This document shows, piece after piece, positions 19,258 through 28,144 of a stretch of DNA of 64,000 nt; the first letter of the stretch is position 1; each line of letters opens with the position of its first letter. The notes under the pieces were generated by a model that did not search any database, was not told the DNA's origin, and saw nothing but the letters and a program-made list of their open reading frames with translations. The DNA is from Bryobacter sp. (GTDB taxonomy: Bacteria > Acidobacteriota > Terriglobia > Bryobacterales > Bryobacteraceae), in contig JALHNI010000008.1 in NCBI GenBank assembly GCA_022843605.1, positions 1 to 64,000 on the forward strand. Reading direction: 5' to 3'. Position numbers and translations under genes: made by a program.

Positions 19258-19334
19258 CGGGGCGTAGCGCAGCCTGGTAGCGCATCTGCTTTGGGAGCAG
19301 AGGGTCGTGAGTTCGAATCCCACCGCCCCGACCA
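19258..19334 (+). tRNA. tRNA-Pro (anticodon TGG)
   Basis: The acceptor stem CGGGGCG (19258-19264) pairs with CGCCCCG (19324-19330), followed by discriminator A and an encoded CCA (19332-19334). The anticodon arm is TCTGC-TTTGGGA-GCAGA with anticodon TGG at 19292-19294. The T-loop is GTTCGAATC. Length 77 nt. The 3' end of tRNA genes is a common integration site, and the gasdermin operon begins about 230 nt downstream. Confidence 0.97.
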
Positions 19335-19522: not shown

Positions 19523-19566
19523 GTAGATCAAGTATTCCTAATGACTTAGCGCAGGAGGTCATTCCA

Positions 19567-20364
19567 GTGGCGAAGTGTGGCGACAGAAGTGTGCAGACGT
19601 TAAATAGCAAGGGATATAACGTCATAAAACTCCCGCGGGCAGGGATCGAGCCCATGGACATCCTGGGGAAGGACGACCAGTCAACAGAACTGCTGGGTCC
19701 GCTGGCGGATGTCTGGAACACAACGGTGGCGCTGCCCACCGCAGTGACCTCGCCGGCTATGGACATTTCGGGACAGCAGACGAATGCGCTGGACCTGTCG
19801 TTGGGCCTGAAGATGCTGGGCAACGTGTTGTCCGCTTTTGGCGCTTCGACGCCATCGCTGGAGTCCGCCTACAAGAATGCGAAGTCGCTGCAGTTTACCT
19901 ACGGACAGGTGACGAGCACAACAGTGAGGCCGCTGCAGGCAGGCAACTACCTGGCGGCGGGCACGCTGAACGCGGCCAATCCGATCGTGAAGCACTACCT
20001 GTTGGAGGACGAGGCGGAGGCCTACCTGATCTTCGACGTATTGAGGTCGAATGAGCTATCCGTGGTGGCCACGGACTCGTCTGGTGCCGAAGTGAAGGTG
20101 GATCTCGGCGTGGTGCAGAATATGCTGGGACCCAAGGTGGGCTTGGGAGCTTCCGGTAGCGGAGGAACGAAGTTGACCTATACGGGCGCCATCCCGTTGA
20201 CGTTTGCTTTCCGCGCTTTTGAGATCATGTTCGACCAAGGGGCGTGGAGGTTGCAGGGCGCGGGTGTGGATGGTTTATCGTTTGCGACCTCGGTGGGCGG
20301 TAGTTCGGAGCCCGGGGGCGAGCCGATCCTACTGCGCGCGAATGGACTCCTGAAGATCAAGTGA
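19567..20364 (+). CDS. Bacterial gasdermin-like pore-forming protein
   Basis: A 265-residue protein starting at GTG 19567, 7 nt after a perfect AGGAGGT. It has no signal peptide. The N-terminus MAKCGDRS has Cys4, the position palmitoylated in characterised bacterial gasdermins, followed by GYNVIKLPRAGIEPMDIL (16-33), which matches my recollection of the family's first strand. The body is beta-rich (LSLGLKMLGNVLSAFGA, TLNAANPIVKHYLLEDEA, LTYTGAIPLTFAFRAFEIMF). The C-terminal ~24 residues after SFATSVGG form the short tail that in this family blocks pore formation until cleaved. Two clan CD proteases and a NACHT ATPase in the same operon support the call. The stop overlaps the next start as GTGA. 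Confidence 0.8.
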   Translation: MAKCGDRSVQTLNSKGYNVIKLPRAGIEPMDILGKDDQSTELLGPLADVWNTTVALPTAVTSPAMDISGQQTNALDLSLGLKMLGNVLSAFGASTPSLESAYKNAKSLQFTYGQVTSTTVRPLQAGNYLAAGTLNAANPIVKHYLLEDEAEAYLIFDVLRSNELSVVATDSSGAEVKVDLGVVQNMLGPKVGLGASGSGGTKLTYTGAIPLTFAFRAFEIMFDQGAWRLQGAGVDGLSFATSVGGSSEPGGEPILLRANGLLKIK

Positions 20365-23300
20365 ACGGGGATTACACCGACCTCGAGATCTACATTCGCC
20401 CCGCTAAGTCGACGGTGAGCGAGGCGGCGTCGCGCCATGACATCGAAGCGAAGATCGATGGCGCGGGCTTATGGCGCGACGAGACGATTCTGGACGAGTC
20501 GCTGCTGAGTGCTTTCGAGGATGACCCGCAGGAGTATGGCAAACGACTGCGGGAGCAGCTTTTCGCTGGACGCATTGCCGCGGCGTATGAGCGGGCTCTG
20601 GGAACGCAGGGACGGAAAGTGCGGGTGCGCATTCTGCTGGATCCGCTGCCGGACCGGCGTCATTGGTTCCGCTGGGAACGCCTCTTCGTAGGCGAGGAGC
20701 CCATCAGTACCTCGTCGCTGACGCCGTTTTCGCGCTATCTGCTGGATGAGCGGAGTGCGCCTCCTGTGCCGGATGACGGTGTCTTCCACTTAGTGGTGGC
20801 ACTGGCCAATCCGAGCAATTTGCCATCGGGGCTCGCAGCGGTGAACGTGATGGAGGAACTTCGGGCACTGGCGTTGGCCTTTCGCGACATCACGAATCGC
20901 ACGCTGTTCCGGCTGGTGGTGATGCCGGGGCAGATTGCGCTCGACGAGGCCCTGGTCGCGTTGCTGCAAGAGGTGCAGGCCAAGGTGGTGCCCGGGCGGG
21001 TGACCTTCGAAGCGATCAAGCTGGAGGCGCAGTCGGCAGACGGACTGCACATCATCGCGCACGGTAAATTCGACCGCAAGAAGCAGCAGGGCCTGCTGTA
21101 CTTCGAAGATGCCGAGGGCAAGCTGGATCGAGTGGATGACGAGCGCTTGAGGGCTTTGAGTACGGGGAACCTGAAGCTAGTCTACCTGCAGGCCTGCGAA
21201 AGCGGCGCCCGCGCCGCACAAGCCGCGGAAGGGGCTATGCAAGGGACCGAAATGCGCGAAGCGAGCATGGTGGGCGTGGCGGCGCGCCTGGTGGGCGCCG
21301 GGATTCCGGCCGTGGTGGCGATGCAGCAGCCGGTGGAGATGAACGATGCGCGGCTGATGACGCGAGCCTTCTACCAGTCGCTGGTGAAGGACGGGGCGGT
21401 GGACGTGGCCGTGAACGCGGGCCGGCAGGCGATCAAAAGCGGCGAGGGAGACCGATGGTCGGTGCCGGCGCTGTACATGCGCTTGCGCGATGGCCGCCTT
21501 TGGCACGCTGATCCGTTCCGCGAAGCGCTACGCGGCGAGGTGGCCAAGTGGGAGCGTCTGCACGACATGCGGACGCCAGTGCCCTTGCAAGCCAGCAAAG
21601 ATCTGGGGGGATCGCGCGCGGTGCGCGGCGGCACTTACGACGTTAACGAGCTGACTCTCTCGCAACTGCGCGAGGGTCAGGCGCGCGTGATCATCGCGGG
21701 TAGCCGTGGCGCGGGCAAGACGTCGGTGCTGGATCGCGTGGCCTGGACGCTGGGCAACGAATTTCTGGAAAAAGATGGAGACTTGTTGCCGATCCGGTTC
21801 GCGCTGACGGACTTAGCGGGGCACGCCGACCTGTTGCGTTTCATCGAGCAGCGGCTGCAGACGCAGACCGGATTGAGCTTCGCCTACAGTGACGATCTGA
21901 TCAATCAGCTGAAAACGCGGAAGCTGGTGTTGATGGTGGATGGCGAGGAAGACGTGGTGCCTGCGCGGCGCGCGGACTTCCTGCAGGCGATGGAGCGCTT
22001 GCCAGCCGGAGTCCGCGTGGTGGTGACGGTGGATGAACTCGCTTTGGGCGAGTGGCTTTCCGATAGCGTTCATGGCGGGTTGGCCAAGCAGAAGCCTTGC
22101 ATCCTGCGCATGGAGCCGATGGAGCGCGCCCTGGTGATGCGTTACCTGAATGATCTGGAAGCGAAAATCCCGGCCGTGGAAGGGAAGAAGAGCGAGACAC
22201 TGGCGGAGAAGATCCAGCGCAATCGCTGGTGGGACCTGACGAGCCAGGCCTGGATGCTGCGGCGGATGATTCGCTATCGCGACGTGGGATTGAACAACCG
22301 GGCCGAGCTCTTTAGCCGGGTGACGGCCGAGCGCATGGGGCAACTGGAACTCGGCAACGTGACGCCATCCTGCGCCGAACAGGCTTTGGCCGCGATCGCC
22401 TGGAAGCTGCAGGAGACGCAGGAAGCCGCGCTTTCCGGCGGCCCGTTGTACGAAGTATTGGCCGATGCGCGGCGCGGCCGCGAGTTTCCTTTGGCGGAGA
22501 TCAAGACCGCGCTGATTCGCGATTGCGAAGTGCTGCGCCGCAGCGGCGAAGAAGGCGTGCGTTTCTCATATGCCGGCTTTCAGGCCTACTACGCAGCGCT
22601 TTACCTGCTGCGCGCGCCGGACCGGGAACGCAAGCTGGACGACATTGTCGCGACCTTGGGTAGTGCGCGGCATTTGCGCCTGTGGGAAGAGACGCTGGTG
22701 ATTCTGGCGGGCATGATGGACGACTTCGGCAGTGTACTGGTGCGCATTCTGGCGGGTTCATCGGCGGCCAGCGGGGAACAGGTGTATCTGGCGGCGAAGT
22801 GCTCTCTGGAGATCCCCGAGGCGCGGCGGGGGCCGGAGTTGCACGACCTGCTGGGGCTCCTGCTGGACACGCTCATCTGGCGCTCGCACCCGACCAACGA
22901 CCGTCCGATCGTCGACCGCAAGAAGGCGATCAAGTGGCTGACGGAGATGGAAACCGGGACAGCGCCGGAGCAGGACCGGGCCATTGAGCATTTGGTGAAT
23001 CTGGCTTGTGACCCGATCAGCAAAGGCTGGGATGGCCAGCCGCGCTACGAATTCTCCGGGATCCGGATTGAAGCGCTGAATGTGATGCTGGCGCGGCGTG
23101 GGGCGGTGACGAAGTACATTCTGGCGAACCGGAAAGATCTGACGCCGCTGTTACGGGCTTCGGCGGAGTTGATCGACAACAACAATCCCGCGCCGATGAT
23201 CCATGTGATGAATCGCGGAAACTCTCACGAGTCGCCGCTGGCGGTTTTTGCCTTGGGCCTGTCGGGCCGCAGCGACGTGATCGACGTTCTGGCCGAGACG

Positions 23301-23885
23301 AATCTCCAGGAGGAGATGAATCGCGAAGTGTTGTGGGCGATCGCGGAGATGCTGCCGCGGCTGGATCCGGCGCAGACGCTCGACAAAGCCGTACGGCCGT
23401 TCTTGAACCGGGAGCCGGACTCGCGGATCGTGTACATGATCAACAAAGTGGGCCGCGAGCAGAAGGACACCAGTGAATACCTGGAGCGCAGCCTGGCGAG
23501 TGGCAAACCCCGGGTGATCGGCCGGGCGATCCGGACGTTGGCGGACTTGGGCGACACGGCCATGAAGGAGCCGTGCGAGATGATTGTCCGCGCCGACTGG
23601 GCGGCGTTGCGTGCCGGCGGCAGGATTGTGCTGCAGAGTGACCCAAACTGGGACGATACGCAGTCCTTGCAGCACGCAGCGCTCGAGGGGTTACGTACGG
23701 TGGGCGATATAGACACGATCGAAGTGTTGCAGAAGGCTTGGCTGAAGTTATCGCAAGTGCTCAGCCAGTTGAGTTACGACGTCGCGGAGAGCATTTACTG
23801 GCGGCTGACGGAACAGCGAAGCCGCGAGAGCAATCAACCAGAAAGAGGACCGCATGCCATTCAAACCCATTCCTGGATCCGATGA
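20361..23885 (+). CDS. CHAT protease-NACHT ATPase-HEAT-like repeat protein (gasdermin activator candidate)
   Basis: A 1174-residue multidomain protein. The N-terminal ~370 residues hold a CHAT (caspase-like, clan CD) protease: LHIIAHGKF with H234 and YLQACESGA with C279 as the expected dyad. A NACHT/STAND ATPase follows: Walker A GSRGAGKTS (447-455, K453), Walker B LVLMVDGEED (D527), then a winged-helix-like region. The C-terminal ~450 residues are helical with HEAT-like repeats and probably sense the trigger. By analogy with NLR-type bacterial systems, ligand binding and ATP would oligomerise it and switch on the protease, which could cut the gasdermin tail. The start GTG 20361 overlaps the gasdermin stop as GTGA; the 3' end overlaps the next gene by 32 nt. 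Confidence 0.85.
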   Translation: MNGDYTDLEIYIRPAKSTVSEAASRHDIEAKIDGAGLWRDETILDESLLSAFEDDPQEYGKRLREQLFAGRIAAAYERALGTQGRKVRVRILLDPLPDRRHWFRWERLFVGEEPISTSSLTPFSRYLLDERSAPPVPDDGVFHLVVALANPSNLPSGLAAVNVMEELRALALAFRDITNRTLFRLVVMPGQIALDEALVALLQEVQAKVVPGRVTFEAIKLEAQSADGLHIIAHGKFDRKKQQGLLYFEDAEGKLDRVDDERLRALSTGNLKLVYLQACESGARAAQAAEGAMQGTEMREASMVGVAARLVGAGIPAVVAMQQPVEMNDARLMTRAFYQSLVKDGAVDVAVNAGRQAIKSGEGDRWSVPALYMRLRDGRLWHADPFREALRGEVAKWERLHDMRTPVPLQASKDLGGSRAVRGGTYDVNELTLSQLREGQARVIIAGSRGAGKTSVLDRVAWTLGNEFLEKDGDLLPIRFALTDLAGHADLLRFIEQRLQTQTGLSFAYSDDLINQLKTRKLVLMVDGEEDVVPARRADFLQAMERLPAGVRVVVTVDELALGEWLSDSVHGGLAKQKPCILRMEPMERALVMRYLNDLEAKIPAVEGKKSETLAEKIQRNRWWDLTSQAWMLRRMIRYRDVGLNNRAELFSRVTAERMGQLELGNVTPSCAEQALAAIAWKLQETQEAALSGGPLYEVLADARRGREFPLAEIKTALIRDCEVLRRSGEEGVRFSYAGFQAYYAALYLLRAPDRERKLDDIVATLGSARHLRLWEETLVILAGMMDDFGSVLVRILAGSSAASGEQVYLAAKCSLEIPEARRGPELHDLLGLLLDTLIWRSHPTNDRPIVDRKKAIKWLTEMETGTAPEQDRAIEHLVNLACDPISKGWDGQPRYEFSGIRIEALNVMLARRGAVTKYILANRKDLTPLLRASAELIDNNNPAPMIHVMNRGNSHESPLAVFALGLSGRSDVIDVLAETNLQEEMNREVLWAIAEMLPRLDPAQTLDKAVRPFLNREPDSRIVYMINKVGREQKDTSEYLERSLASGKPRVIGRAIRTLADLGDTAMKEPCEMIVRADWAALRAGGRIVLQSDPNWDDTQSLQHAALEGLRTVGDIDTIEVLQKAWLKLSQVLSQLSYDVAESIYWRLTEQRSRESNQPERGPHAIQTHSWIR

Positions 23886-25158
23886 ACAATACGCGCTGAT
23901 CAGCTTTGACGCCAACGGGAACGAGCGGACCGACGAAGTCCCCGGGCTGTTTTCGCGGGAAGTGCTCGAAAAGGCCAAACGCGAGCAGCCCACCAACATC
24001 TTCTTCTTCAGCCATGGCTGGAAGGGTGACATCCCCGCGGCCATTGACCAATACAATCGCTGGATTGGGGCGATGGCGGCACGCAAAGCCGACCGGGCCA
24101 GGATGGGCCCGAACTTCAAGCCGATGTGGATTGGGCTACATTGGCCCAGCCTGCCGTTTGGCGAAGAGAATCTGGCGGCGAACAGTTTTGCGACGGACGG
24201 GGGAGACGAAATCGCCAAGCTGGTGGACGAAGCGGTGGCGCACTTCGGGGGCAGTGAGGCGGTCCGGGGGCCGCTGGAGATCATCTTTCAATCGAGCGTC
24301 GACGATGCCGGTGCGACCGAGGTGCCGCCCGCGGTCCTAAAGGCCTATCAGGAGTTGGCCGACGCGATCGGCTTTAAAGCAGGCGGCGAAGCCGATGGCG
24401 CGCCGGATGAAGACGGGGCCCCGCTGGATCCACAGGGGGCGCTGGAGGCCGCGAACATGACGGGTGCCTCGTTCGGCTTGGGTGACCGGCTGATGAATGG
24501 CATTCTGGGCGGCGTGCGTCAGTTGTCGTTCTGGACGATGAAGAAGCGTGCGCGAACGGTGGGCGAGAACGGGATGCATCGCTTTGTCGCCACGCTGATG
24601 AAGACGACCAACGCGAAGATTCACCTGATGGGGCATAGCTTCGGCTGCATTGTGACGTCGGGGATTCTGGGCGGCTCGAACGGGCGGACGCCGTTGCCGC
24701 GGCCGGTGCACTCGGTGGCGCTGGTGCAGGGGGCGTTCTCACTGTGGGCTTATGGGGAAGCCGGCAAGGTCCCGAATACGGCGAACCCGGGCTACTTCCA
24801 CAATGTGATTCCTTCGAAAGGCGTCAGCGGGCCGTTCCTGACGACGCAGTCGCAGCACGATACGGCGGTGGGGGTTTTCTATCCGGCCGCGGTGTTTCTG
24901 GATCGCGATGTGTCGTTCGATCCGGTAAAGCTGCCGAAGTCCGGGGCGATTGGCACTTATGGCATTCAGGGAACGGCTAGCGCCGTGGCGGCGAAGTTAC
25001 TCGACGAAAACAGCGAATACACGTTCGAGGGCGGCCGGATCTATAACCTGAATTGCGACCAGTTCATTAAGAAGATGGATGGCTCATCGGGGGCCCATAG
25101 TGACATTGACGGGCCGCAGGTGGCGCATCTGCTGTGGCAGGCGGCGCTCGCCTCTTAA
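23854..25158 (+). CDS. Alpha/beta hydrolase of the gasdermin operon
   Basis: A 434-residue protein without signal peptide. NIFFFSHGWKGD near residue 50 looks like the oxyanion-hole strand, MGHSFGCIV carries the nucleophile (S262 in GHSFG), and GAHSDI near the end offers the catalytic His (H415). It belongs to the lipase/esterase-like alpha/beta hydrolases found in defence loci with CHAT-type proteases; substrate unknown (lipid, thioester or peptide). Removing a palmitoyl group from gasdermin Cys4 or attacking membrane lipids are two speculative roles. GAAAGAGGA precedes ATG 23854, which lies inside the upstream gene (32-nt overlap). Confidence 0.8.
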   Translation: MPFKPIPGSDEQYALISFDANGNERTDEVPGLFSREVLEKAKREQPTNIFFFSHGWKGDIPAAIDQYNRWIGAMAARKADRARMGPNFKPMWIGLHWPSLPFGEENLAANSFATDGGDEIAKLVDEAVAHFGGSEAVRGPLEIIFQSSVDDAGATEVPPAVLKAYQELADAIGFKAGGEADGAPDEDGAPLDPQGALEAANMTGASFGLGDRLMNGILGGVRQLSFWTMKKRARTVGENGMHRFVATLMKTTNAKIHLMGHSFGCIVTSGILGGSNGRTPLPRPVHSVALVQGAFSLWAYGEAGKVPNTANPGYFHNVIPSKGVSGPFLTTQSQHDTAVGVFYPAAVFLDRDVSFDPVKLPKSGAIGTYGIQGTASAVAAKLLDENSEYTFEGGRIYNLNCDQFIKKMDGSSGAHSDIDGPQVAHLLWQAALAS

Positions 25159-25185
25159 GCCGCCCTTTGGGGCGAAGGAGTAACC

Positions 25186-26610
25186 GTGGCGGAATTTGAA
25201 GACGAAACGATGCCGCTGCCCTTCGGCGTAACGTCGAAGGGCCAGCCGCTGAACGAGCTGCAGCCGGCCGACGTCCTGCACATTGAGGAAGCTTCGGCGG
25301 CCGCGCGGGATCGGGCGCGGGCCAAGCAATTGCTGGCGTTTGCCGAAGGGGTCGATCCGCTGGACCTGCGGAGCGCGGGATGGGGGATCGTGTTCGCCCG
25401 CGATCCCGATCCGGCGTTGAAAGAGGCGTTGCAGCCCTTGATGGAGCATCGCCGCAAGCAGGTGAACGACGAGGCCTTGTTCAAGGTGTTCGATGATGCG
25501 CGCGGGGTCCGAAGCGGCGAATCGGCGCGGGGCTTTGTCACTCGTCACGGGACCGACTTCATGGAGGTGGAGCCCTCGAACGGCGTCCCGCTTTATTTGC
25601 TGTTGGTCGGTTCGCCGGAACAAATCCCGTTCGACTTTCAGTACGCGCTGGATAGCTACTGGAACGTGGGCCGGCTCGACTTCGATCGGCCGGCGGACTA
25701 TGCGGAGTATGCGCAGCATGTGATCGCCTACGAGACGGCCGCCACAGTGTCGACCCGGAAGAAGGCTGTGCTATGGAATGTGAAGAATCCGGGGGACCAG
25801 GCGACGGGGCTTCTGCACAATCTGGTGGCCAAGCCGCTAGTGGAGGGGCAGGGAACGAACAAGCCGATCGGCACGAAGTCCGGCTTCGCGGTGCAGGCCT
25901 TATTGGCCGATGCGGCCAGCAAAGGGGCGCTGTTGGACGTGCTGCGCGGCCCGGAGACGCCGGCCTTGCTCTTTACCGGCTCACACGGCGTAGCGTTTCC
26001 AGATGCCGATGAAGCGACACGGCGCGAGGGGCAGGGCGCGCTACTGGCGCAGGCCTGGTCACGCGGCGGACCAATGCTGGCGGATCATTACATCACCGGT
26101 GCGGAGGTGCTGGCCGAGGCAAATGTCACCGGCATGATCCATTTCCTGTTCGCCTGCTACGGCGGAGGCTGCCCGGCGGTGGACAACTATCAACGCAACG
26201 CCGAAGGCCAGCCGGTGCCGCTGATGGAGAAGCCGGTGGTGGCTCGCTTGCCCCAGGCGATGCTGCGGCGCGGTGCCCTGGCGGTACTGGCGCATGTGGA
26301 CCGGGCCTGGAGCTACGGCTTCCAGTCGCCCACTGGACGAGGGCAGTATCAGGGCTTTCGCTCGGTGATCGACCGGATCCTGAATGGCGAGCCGATCGGG
26401 CAGGCGACGGATTCCTTCAACCAGCGCTGGGGAGCGCTTTCCAACGAGCTGCTGGACCTCACCCGCCGTCGCGATGACGGGGATCCGATTCCGGCTACGG
26501 TGCTCGCAAACCGTTGGGTGGCGCGCAACGATGCACGCAACTACATGATCCTGGGCGACCCGGCGGTGAGGCTGCGGGTGGACGCGATGCACTCGGCCGA
26601 AGGGCCATAG
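25186..26610 (+). CDS. Caspase-like clan CD cysteine protease (C25/CHAT-like)
   Basis: A 474-residue protein from GTG 25186, with AAGGAG 5 nt upstream. The first 160 residues lead to LYLLLVGSPEQIPFDFQYAL, a segment typical of gingipain/C25-like and CHAT-like proteases. The catalytic dyad is expected in LLFTGSHGVAFP (H267) and HFLFACYGGGCP (C324). MILGDPAVRL close to the end is also common in this group. It is distinct from the CHAT domain of the second gene, so the operon has two clan CD proteases, one free and one tethered to NACHT. One plausible order is that the NACHT-linked protease activates this one, which then cuts gasdermin. It is the last gene of the operon; no terminator seen. Confidence 0.82.
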   Translation: MAEFEDETMPLPFGVTSKGQPLNELQPADVLHIEEASAAARDRARAKQLLAFAEGVDPLDLRSAGWGIVFARDPDPALKEALQPLMEHRRKQVNDEALFKVFDDARGVRSGESARGFVTRHGTDFMEVEPSNGVPLYLLLVGSPEQIPFDFQYALDSYWNVGRLDFDRPADYAEYAQHVIAYETAATVSTRKKAVLWNVKNPGDQATGLLHNLVAKPLVEGQGTNKPIGTKSGFAVQALLADAASKGALLDVLRGPETPALLFTGSHGVAFPDADEATRREGQGALLAQAWSRGGPMLADHYITGAEVLAEANVTGMIHFLFACYGGGCPAVDNYQRNAEGQPVPLMEKPVVARLPQAMLRRGALAVLAHVDRAWSYGFQSPTGRGQYQGFRSVIDRILNGEPIGQATDSFNQRWGALSNELLDLTRRRDDGDPIPATVLANRWVARNDARNYMILGDPAVRLRVDAMHSAEGP

Positions 26611-26629: not shown

Positions 26630-28144
26630 ATGAAACTGACGCTCGGCCTGCTCCTCGCGATGACTCTTTCCGCCCAACAGGCGGCCGATTGGCTGGAGTT
26701 GTTCAACGGCAAGAACCTGGACGGTTGGGTAGTGAAGATCGCCGGCCACGAGCTAGGCGATAACTACGGCCGGACGTTCCGGGCGGAAGACGGCGCGATC
26801 AAGGTCGCTTATGACCAATACACGGACTTCGGCAATCGCTTCTCGCACCTCTTTTATAAGCAGAAGTTCTCGCACTACCGGCTCTCTCTGGAGTACCGGA
26901 TCACCGGCCAGCAGATGAAGGGCGCACCGGGCTATGCGCGCCTGAATAGCGGGGTGATGATCCATTCGCAAGCTCCCGAGACGATCCTGAAGAATCAGGA
27001 CTGGCCGATTTCGGTGGAAGCGCAGTTTCTCAGCAACGACGGCGAACTGAAACGCCCCACAATGAACGTCTGCACGCCAGGCACAGAGATCTTCATGAAG
27101 GGGCAGATGGTGAAGGCGCACTGCACGAACTCCACTTCCAAGATCTACCGGGGCGAGGATTGGCTGAAGGTGGAGGTGGAAGTGCTAGGCGGCGAGCGGG
27201 TGCGGCACTTCATCGACGGCCAGGTGGTGCTGCAGTATGAGACGCCGCAGATCGGTGGCGGCGTGGCCAATGGCTTCGACCCGGCGATCAAGCAGGACGG
27301 CAAGTTACTCACCGAAGGCTACATTGGCTTGCAGAGCGAGAGCCAGCCGGTAGAATTTCGTAACATCCGGCTACTGAATTTGTCGGGTTGCATGGATCCG
27401 CGCAGCCCGCGCTTCAAGCCCTACTTTGTGCATCGCGACGATACGCAGTGCGCTCCGGCGGCGCGGGGGCCGGGCATCTATCCGCAATACGAGCCCGACG
27501 ACAGCTCGGGCTTCGTGTCGATCTTCGATGGCAAGACGCTCAACGGTTGGGATGGCGATACGACGTTCTGGCGCGTGGAGAACGGCGAGATCGTCGGCGA
27601 GACGACGCCGGAGAAGGTGGTGAAGGTGAATAACTTTCTCATCTGGCGTGGCGGCAAGGTGAAGGACTTCGAGTTAAAGGTGGAATTCAAGCTGAGCGGC
27701 ACCAACAGCGGGATTCAGTATCGCAGTGTCGAGTTGCCAGAAGTAGGTAAGTGGGTATTGAAGGGCTATCAGGCTGATCTCGACATCGGCAACGGCTATA
27801 CGGGTAATCTGCATGAGGAACGCGGCCGCATGCCGGGCCATGTGGTGCTGGCGCGGCGCGGTGACGTCACGCGGATCACGGAGGGGCCGAAGTACAAGGT
27901 GCTGGCTACCCTCGGCGACAACCGGATGCTGCGCGGGGTGGTGAACGTGCAGGGGTGGAATCAGTATCACATCATTGCCCGCGGACCGGTGATGCTACAG
28001 ATTCTGAACGGCCAGCTCGTCAGCGCGACGATCGACGAGGACACGAAGAATTTCGTGCCCGAAGGCTTACTCGGCTTCCAGATGCACGTCGGGCCGCCGT
28101 TCCGGGTGGCTTACCGGAACATTCTCTATCGAAAGCTGAACTAA
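26630..28144 (+). CDS. Secreted protein with two DUF1080 (3-keto-disaccharide hydrolase) domains
   Basis: A 504-residue protein with signal MKLTLGLLLAMTLSAQQ. The DUF1080 signature occurs twice: WLELFNGKNLDGWV near 23 and FVSIFDGKTLNGWD near 295. Each starts a concanavalin-like jelly-roll of about 210 residues. Members of the family hydrolyse 3-keto-glycosides or bind glycans, and in Acidobacteria and Planctomycetes they accompany Gfo/Idh/MocA oxidoreductases that oxidise sugars at C3. Several secreted Gfo proteins occur elsewhere in this window. The 3' end overlaps the convergent PQQ dehydrogenase gene by 4 nt. Confidence 0.85.
   Translation: MKLTLGLLLAMTLSAQQAADWLELFNGKNLDGWVVKIAGHELGDNYGRTFRAEDGAIKVAYDQYTDFGNRFSHLFYKQKFSHYRLSLEYRITGQQMKGAPGYARLNSGVMIHSQAPETILKNQDWPISVEAQFLSNDGELKRPTMNVCTPGTEIFMKGQMVKAHCTNSTSKIYRGEDWLKVEVEVLGGERVRHFIDGQVVLQYETPQIGGGVANGFDPAIKQDGKLLTEGYIGLQSESQPVEFRNIRLLNLSGCMDPRSPRFKPYFVHRDDTQCAPAARGPGIYPQYEPDDSSGFVSIFDGKTLNGWDGDTTFWRVENGEIVGETTPEKVVKVNNFLIWRGGKVKDFELKVEFKLSGTNSGIQYRSVELPEVGKWVLKGYQADLDIGNGYTGNLHEERGRMPGHVVLARRGDVTRITEGPKYKVLATLGDNRMLRGVVNVQGWNQYHIIARGPVMLQILNGQLVSATIDEDTKNFVPEGLLGFQMHVGPPFRVAYRNILYRKLN

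Follow-up and report, generated by a model that had tools for sequence, protein, structure and literature searches.

An acidobacterial operon joining an optional gasdermin to a protease-paired alpha/beta hydrolase, a candidate for altruistic cell death

Bacterial gasdermins are cleaved some 20 residues from the C-terminus, behind a Leu or Arg, by adjacent caspase-like proteases, and most carry a palmitoyl thioester (PMC9612521). An operon in the window (the whole 64,000-nucleotide stretch of Bryobacter sp. DNA analysed here) raises the question of whether it is one more system of this type or a different arrangement to which a gasdermin has been added. The original prediction described a gasdermin-type cell death operon of acidobacterial origin, and both its origin and its layout of four co-directional, overlapping or tightly packed frames at 19567-26610 were confirmed (Table 1). 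Homologues of each of the four proteins, about 25-70% identical, lie beside the same neighbours in other genomes, thus the gene set is not a chance one. A scan of the operon for promoters and terminators gave nothing above chance, and a secreted-protein gene starting at 26630, 20 bases 3' of the operon, was absent from those loci of relatives that were inspected.

Table 1. Features of the operon and its 5' flank, in window coordinates.
Feature	Positions	Strand	Remarks
tRNA-Pro (TGG)	19258..19334	+	immediately 5' of operon; ARAGORN; possible insertion landmark
Ribosome binding site AGGAGG	19553..19558	+	8 bases 5' of gasdermin GTG start; read from sequence
Gasdermin gene	19567..20364	+	265 aa, GTG start
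CHAT protease - NACHT-like - HEAT repeat protein gene	20361..23885	+	1174 aa; 4-base overlap with gasdermin gene
Alpha/beta hydrolase gene	23854..25158	+	434 aa; 32-base overlap with CHAT gene
C25-type cysteine peptidase gene	25186..26610	+	474 aa; 27-base gap after hydrolase gene

As judged by its profile matches, the first gene product is a bacterial gasdermin. It matches the PADLOC bGSDM model (1.5e-69), the NCBIfam prokaryotic gasdermin NF051890 (1e-58, scoring 198.5 bits where the cut-off is 100) and the solved structure PDB 7n51, the Vitiosangium gasdermin (1.4e-41, residues 3-263). The last match spans the whole length of the protein, leaving no sign of a fold unlike gasdermin, and the translation start agrees with the starts of relatives (MAKCGDRS / MAKKKDPS). 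The two features first noticed in this protein are both present, namely a Cys at position 4, an acylation-type position, and a short C-terminal tail from about residue 240 to 265, which in alignment comprises a Gly/Ser/Pro-rich linker with a hydrophobic end. The N-terminal Cys is missing from the gasdermins of three other loci (L087, L088 and L009). Those of L087 (6554-7351) and L088 (9760-10584) start with MAKKKDPS and have a Cys near the C-terminus instead (SSSCRLRV and SSSCLLRLSEA, respectively). A shift of the acylation site to the C-terminus is possible there, and members may differ in how lipids tune pore formation. Scans of viral contigs for the gasdermin, the hydrolase and the C25 peptidase returned no relatives.

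The operon encodes two clan CD proteases, as had been proposed, although their description needs amendment. The second gene product was described as a CHAT-NACHT-HEAT protein, of which CHAT (Pfam, 7.8e-22, 78.5 bits, cut-off 24) and HEAT (HEAT_2, 2.9e-4) stand, and the CHAT dyad His234/Cys279 is invariant in all 18 homologues. The NACHT assignment is weak, with a Pfam score of 17.4 bits (4.2e-3) under the cut-off of 26.7 and a match of any kind in only two of six relatives. The P-loop of the window protein (GSRGAGKT, at about residue 447) is intact, but it is broken in all five relatives compared (GSRGSSKGT, GKRGRDKRQ, GSRGRAKTT, GPSGSNKTE and GQRGTARST), making an ATP-driven, classical NACHT switch doubtful. 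Membership of the bNACHT group, defined by a Pfam NACHT match over the cut-off together with a Walker A motif kept in relatives, is not supported. A PADLOC SAVED_CHAT match (E 3.7e-8) is confined to the CHAT part, with no SAVED domain detected by PADLOC. Likewise, no CARD or trypsin match was obtained in a Pfam search of the operon proteins, bearing in mind that CARD can escape sequence detection. The fourth gene product, predicted to be a caspase-like protease, is a clan CD cysteine peptidase but of Pfam family Peptidase_C25 (2.9e-5, marginal at 23.9 bits against a cut-off of 23) rather than C14, for which Pfam returned nothing at E values as high as 1. Its dyad His267/Cys324 is invariant in 23/23 homologues, and the records of plasmid homologues name the product "C25 family cysteine peptidase". 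A model built from three sequences (pLDDT 42.4) was too poor for a fold search, and solved structures offered no credible homologue of the CHAT protein, the hydrolase or the C25 peptidase.

The third gene product is predicted to be an alpha/beta hydrolase, in line with the original prediction, on the grounds of a GxSxG nucleophile elbow and a catalytic triad. The triad, Ser262 (GHSFG)-Asp336-His415, is invariant in 36/36 members (from one alignment with 11 homologues and another with 36), while no family model, those of Pfam, PADLOC and NCBIfam included, scored above its cut-off. A single-sequence model (pLDDT 33.6) was too poor for a fold search. Ahead of the nucleophile strand lies an insertion of 129 residues, which across homologues measures about 113-165 residues, is placed between a WPS strand and an MKxRA helix, and differs in its sequence motifs between the hydrolase clades partnered by C25 peptidases and by subtilisins (S8).

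An order-wide search located the hydrolase in 48 of 257 genomes. Of the 36 hydrolase loci examined, 34 contain a protease, a C25 peptidase in 19 cases and an S8 protease in 15; the two exceptions are L155, which lies at a contig edge, and L028, which has Ter-type neighbours. In the latter (L028:1851-8890) the hydrolase adjoins genes for a TerD/TerF-type vWA protein and a ClpB-like AAA protein. Partner type changes once in the hydrolase tree (support 100/100), and the protease-paired hydrolase spans four phyla. Plasmids of Rhizobium johnstonii (pRL11) and Rhodococcus oxybenzonivorans also carry paired S8 and hydrolase genes, separated by 9-12 bases, and the S8 partners inspected have no evident signal peptide. 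Such two-gene pairs, with cytosolic-looking N-termini, are widespread (L154, L156-L166, L168, L169) and appear to form a compact defence or cell-death system, so far undescribed. The hydrolase and C25 peptidase are fused in a protein of 960 aa (L088), and a single protein of 1390 residues (L152:9256-13428) joins both to a phospholipase D-like domain (1.9e-34). These fusions indicate linked function, with the phospholipase D-like domain pointing to a further effector. No description of the protease-hydrolase pair was found in the literature searched.

The distribution of the four genes shows which of them are constant. In the order to which the source bacterium belongs, a gasdermin is present in 14 of 257 genomes, which are all members of one family. 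The complete set, far from lacking in relatives, recurs in four other genera, giving five genera of that family in total (window, L087, L088, L091 and L092), against an expected overlap of 0.65 genomes (P = 1.4e-4, uncorrected for kinship). Gene order in L087 and L092 is that of the window, and in L091 it is CHAT, hydrolase, C25, gasdermin; L092 lies at a contig edge, where the gasdermin frame misses about its first 30 residues. In window and relatives alike, both the CHAT and the C25 protease share an operon with gasdermin. Three loci (L090, L093 and L008, the last from a MAG) hold C25, gasdermin and CHAT without the hydrolase, Granulicella has gasdermin and C25 with a divergent CHAT protein, and some gasdermin loci of the order have other partners, for example C14 caspases (L086, L089).

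The remaining three genes also occur on their own. CHAT-HEAT, hydrolase and C25 genes without gasdermin are present in six Acidobacteriota loci (L029, L147, L148, L149, L150 and L152), one of them (L148) in the window's genus. Further afield, and again without gasdermin, the hydrolase adjoins C25 on Sinorhizobium and Nostoc plasmids, lies about 8 kb from it in Planktothrix, and in Gemmobacter and Bradyrhizobium forms a more diverged pair with it, accompanied by one further protein and a CHAT protein of small size. Between hydrolase and CHAT, three diverged hydrolase-X-CHAT-C25 operons (L025, L026, L032) encode a conserved protein of 450-610 residues with no Pfam match. In a tree built from the concatenated core proteins, a locus with gasdermin is paired with one lacking it three times at full support (window/L148, L087/L147, L088/L152), and the gasdermin must have been gained or lost at least four times. 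The gasdermins of L087 and L088 are each other's closest (65% identical, support 97/97) and yet the cores beside them do not group as sisters, hence the gasdermin reassorts relative to the core. The core-only loci contain no convincing remnant of a gasdermin. The gasdermin is therefore an optional add-on, gained or lost several times, to a core of CHAT, hydrolase and C25; the operon does contain a gasdermin, as claimed, but as a variable rather than a constant component. Effectors appear to be exchangeable around the CHAT and C25 pair. The bacterial gasdermin operon is known as a kind, and what appears new is the optional gasdermin and the protease-paired hydrolase within the core.

Taken with work on bacterial gasdermins (PMC9612521), CARD-NLR systems (PMC13236601), nuclease-protease pairs (PMC12799240) and SAVED-CHAT (PMC11229360), from which the proposed steps are inferred, the operon probably encodes a protease-triggered, altruistic cell death, presumably directed against phage, in which two effectors attack the membrane. 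The CHAT-NACHT-like-HEAT protein would act as the sensor, its repeat part reading an infection cue and its CHAT protease becoming activated. CHAT and C25 could then operate as a cascade, in which CHAT activates C25, or in parallel, and either could remove the C-terminal tail of the gasdermin to allow membrane insertion and pore formation. The C25 peptidase would also activate the hydrolase, most likely by a cut within the long insertion before the nucleophile, and the activated hydrolase would attack membrane lipids. Pores and lipid hydrolysis together would damage the membrane, and the infected cell would die. In support of such a scheme, phospholipases or endonucleases can replace gasdermin in CARD-NLR systems (PMC13236601), various immune systems contain a pro-nuclease together with a partner protease that gates it (PMC12799240), and SAVED-CHAT works through a proteolytic cascade (PMC11229360). 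A narrower proposal is plausible if short of probable, namely that the hydrolase founds a previously undescribed family of lipase effectors gated by proteases and inherited with C25 or S8 across at least four phyla, to which the window adds a gasdermin for a dual membrane attack run by a single protease relay of CHAT and C25.

Which protease serves which effector can be read differently. CHAT alone might cut the gasdermin while C25 serves only the hydrolase, leaving two separate systems under one promoter. The activation of a fungal gasdermin by a TPR-CHAT protease (PMC12881547) and the gain or loss of gasdermin while C25 and hydrolase stay agree with this separation; even so, it is somewhat unlikely, as C25 adjoins gasdermin without the hydrolase in L008, L009, L090 and L093. 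CHAT is also present in those four loci, thus co-occurrence cannot separate C25 from CHAT as the gasdermin protease. The direction of control over the hydrolase is a related matter, given that strict protease pairing is compatible with a cut that switches the enzyme either on or off. The proteases might degrade or restrain the hydrolase, which would then make or consume a signal, or act once free of protease. Co-activation is a better fit to the hydrolase-protease fusions (L088, L152) and to the company of membrane attackers (gasdermin and the phospholipase D-like domain), and the analogous pro-nuclease-protease arrangement is an activating one (PMC12799240), so that restraint is improbable.

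The role of the hydrolase itself might also be a different one. Thioesterases are alpha/beta hydrolases, which counts for a reading in which the enzyme is an acyl-protein thioesterase acting on Cys4 to regulate the lipid anchor of the gasdermin, with the gasdermin as the sole killer. The Cys4 of the window protein and the palmitoyl thioester of most bacterial gasdermins (PMC9612521) are in keeping with it. Against this, the hydrolase is far commoner without gasdermin, beside C25 or S8 proteases, and is retained in L087 and L088, whose gasdermins have no N-terminal Cys, rendering such a role highly improbable. Under the preferred reading of two co-activated membrane attackers, the locus would not merely be another gasdermin operon but a modular death pathway, in which the proteases are fixed and the membrane attackers (gasdermin, hydrolase, phospholipase D-like domain) are swapped.

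The operon can be compared with several described systems. With bacterial gasdermin operons (Johnson et al., 2022, via PMC9612521) it shares the same gasdermin family over full length and caspase-fold protease neighbours, CHAT being among the partners listed; some of those operons also have phospholipase genes nearby. It differs from them, as described there, in combining a C25-type peptidase, a CHAT-HEAT protein and a protease-paired hydrolase, and in that gasdermin is optional. The Lysobacter CARD-NLR gasdermin system (Wein et al., 2025, via PMC13236601) likewise has a sensor ATPase-like protein, proteases and a gasdermin, the last replaceable in relatives by a phospholipase or endonuclease. 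Unlike that system, the operon shows neither a trypsin-like protease nor a CARD at the sequence level, its sensor is a CHAT protein whose NACHT-like part is degenerate in relatives, and gasdermin and hydrolase co-occur. As in the nuclease-protease pairs, including canu (PMC12799240), an effector enzyme is co-inherited with proteases of differing families and its insertion is a possible gate, although the effector is an alpha/beta hydrolase instead of an MBL-fold nuclease and the gating is putative. The SAVED-CHAT type III CRISPR cascade (PMC11229360) has in common the CHAT protease and a proteolytic cascade, here a proposed one, while the window CHAT protein has no SAVED domain. If the lipase proposal is true, the hydrolase family would be the lipid counterpart of pro-nuclease-protease pairs. 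Its recurrent pairing with two unrelated protease families leads to a direct prediction, namely that immune enzymes activated by proteases form a class, and the version made of just two genes, S8 and hydrolase, is small enough for immediate test.

A separate link between protease and hydrolase at a gasdermin locus is found in the same bacterial family (L086:4379-10219), where the gasdermin is followed by a C14 caspase and then by a trypsin-alpha/beta-hydrolase fusion. This resembles the window in having a protease-linked hydrolase beside a gasdermin but appears independent, as the protease families are unrelated and the profile of the window-type hydrolase misses the fusion.

The tRNA-Pro gene was considered as a site of island insertion and set aside, given that its 3' end is not repeated within the window, the composition of the operon resembles its surroundings, and the operon flanks are separated in a genome of the same genus (G533), so that no empty site is demonstrable. 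The genome of the window contains a second C25 locus (L059; G000 contig C4, 30000-49500), with a CHAT-SIR2 fusion, an nSTAND1-WD40 protein, a protein kinase with TPRs and a C25 peptidase. In G533, the 3' part of the tRNA-Pro recurs about 2.5 kb downstream (51 bases, 98%) in an integration-site-like manner (L116; contig C18, 133500-146500).
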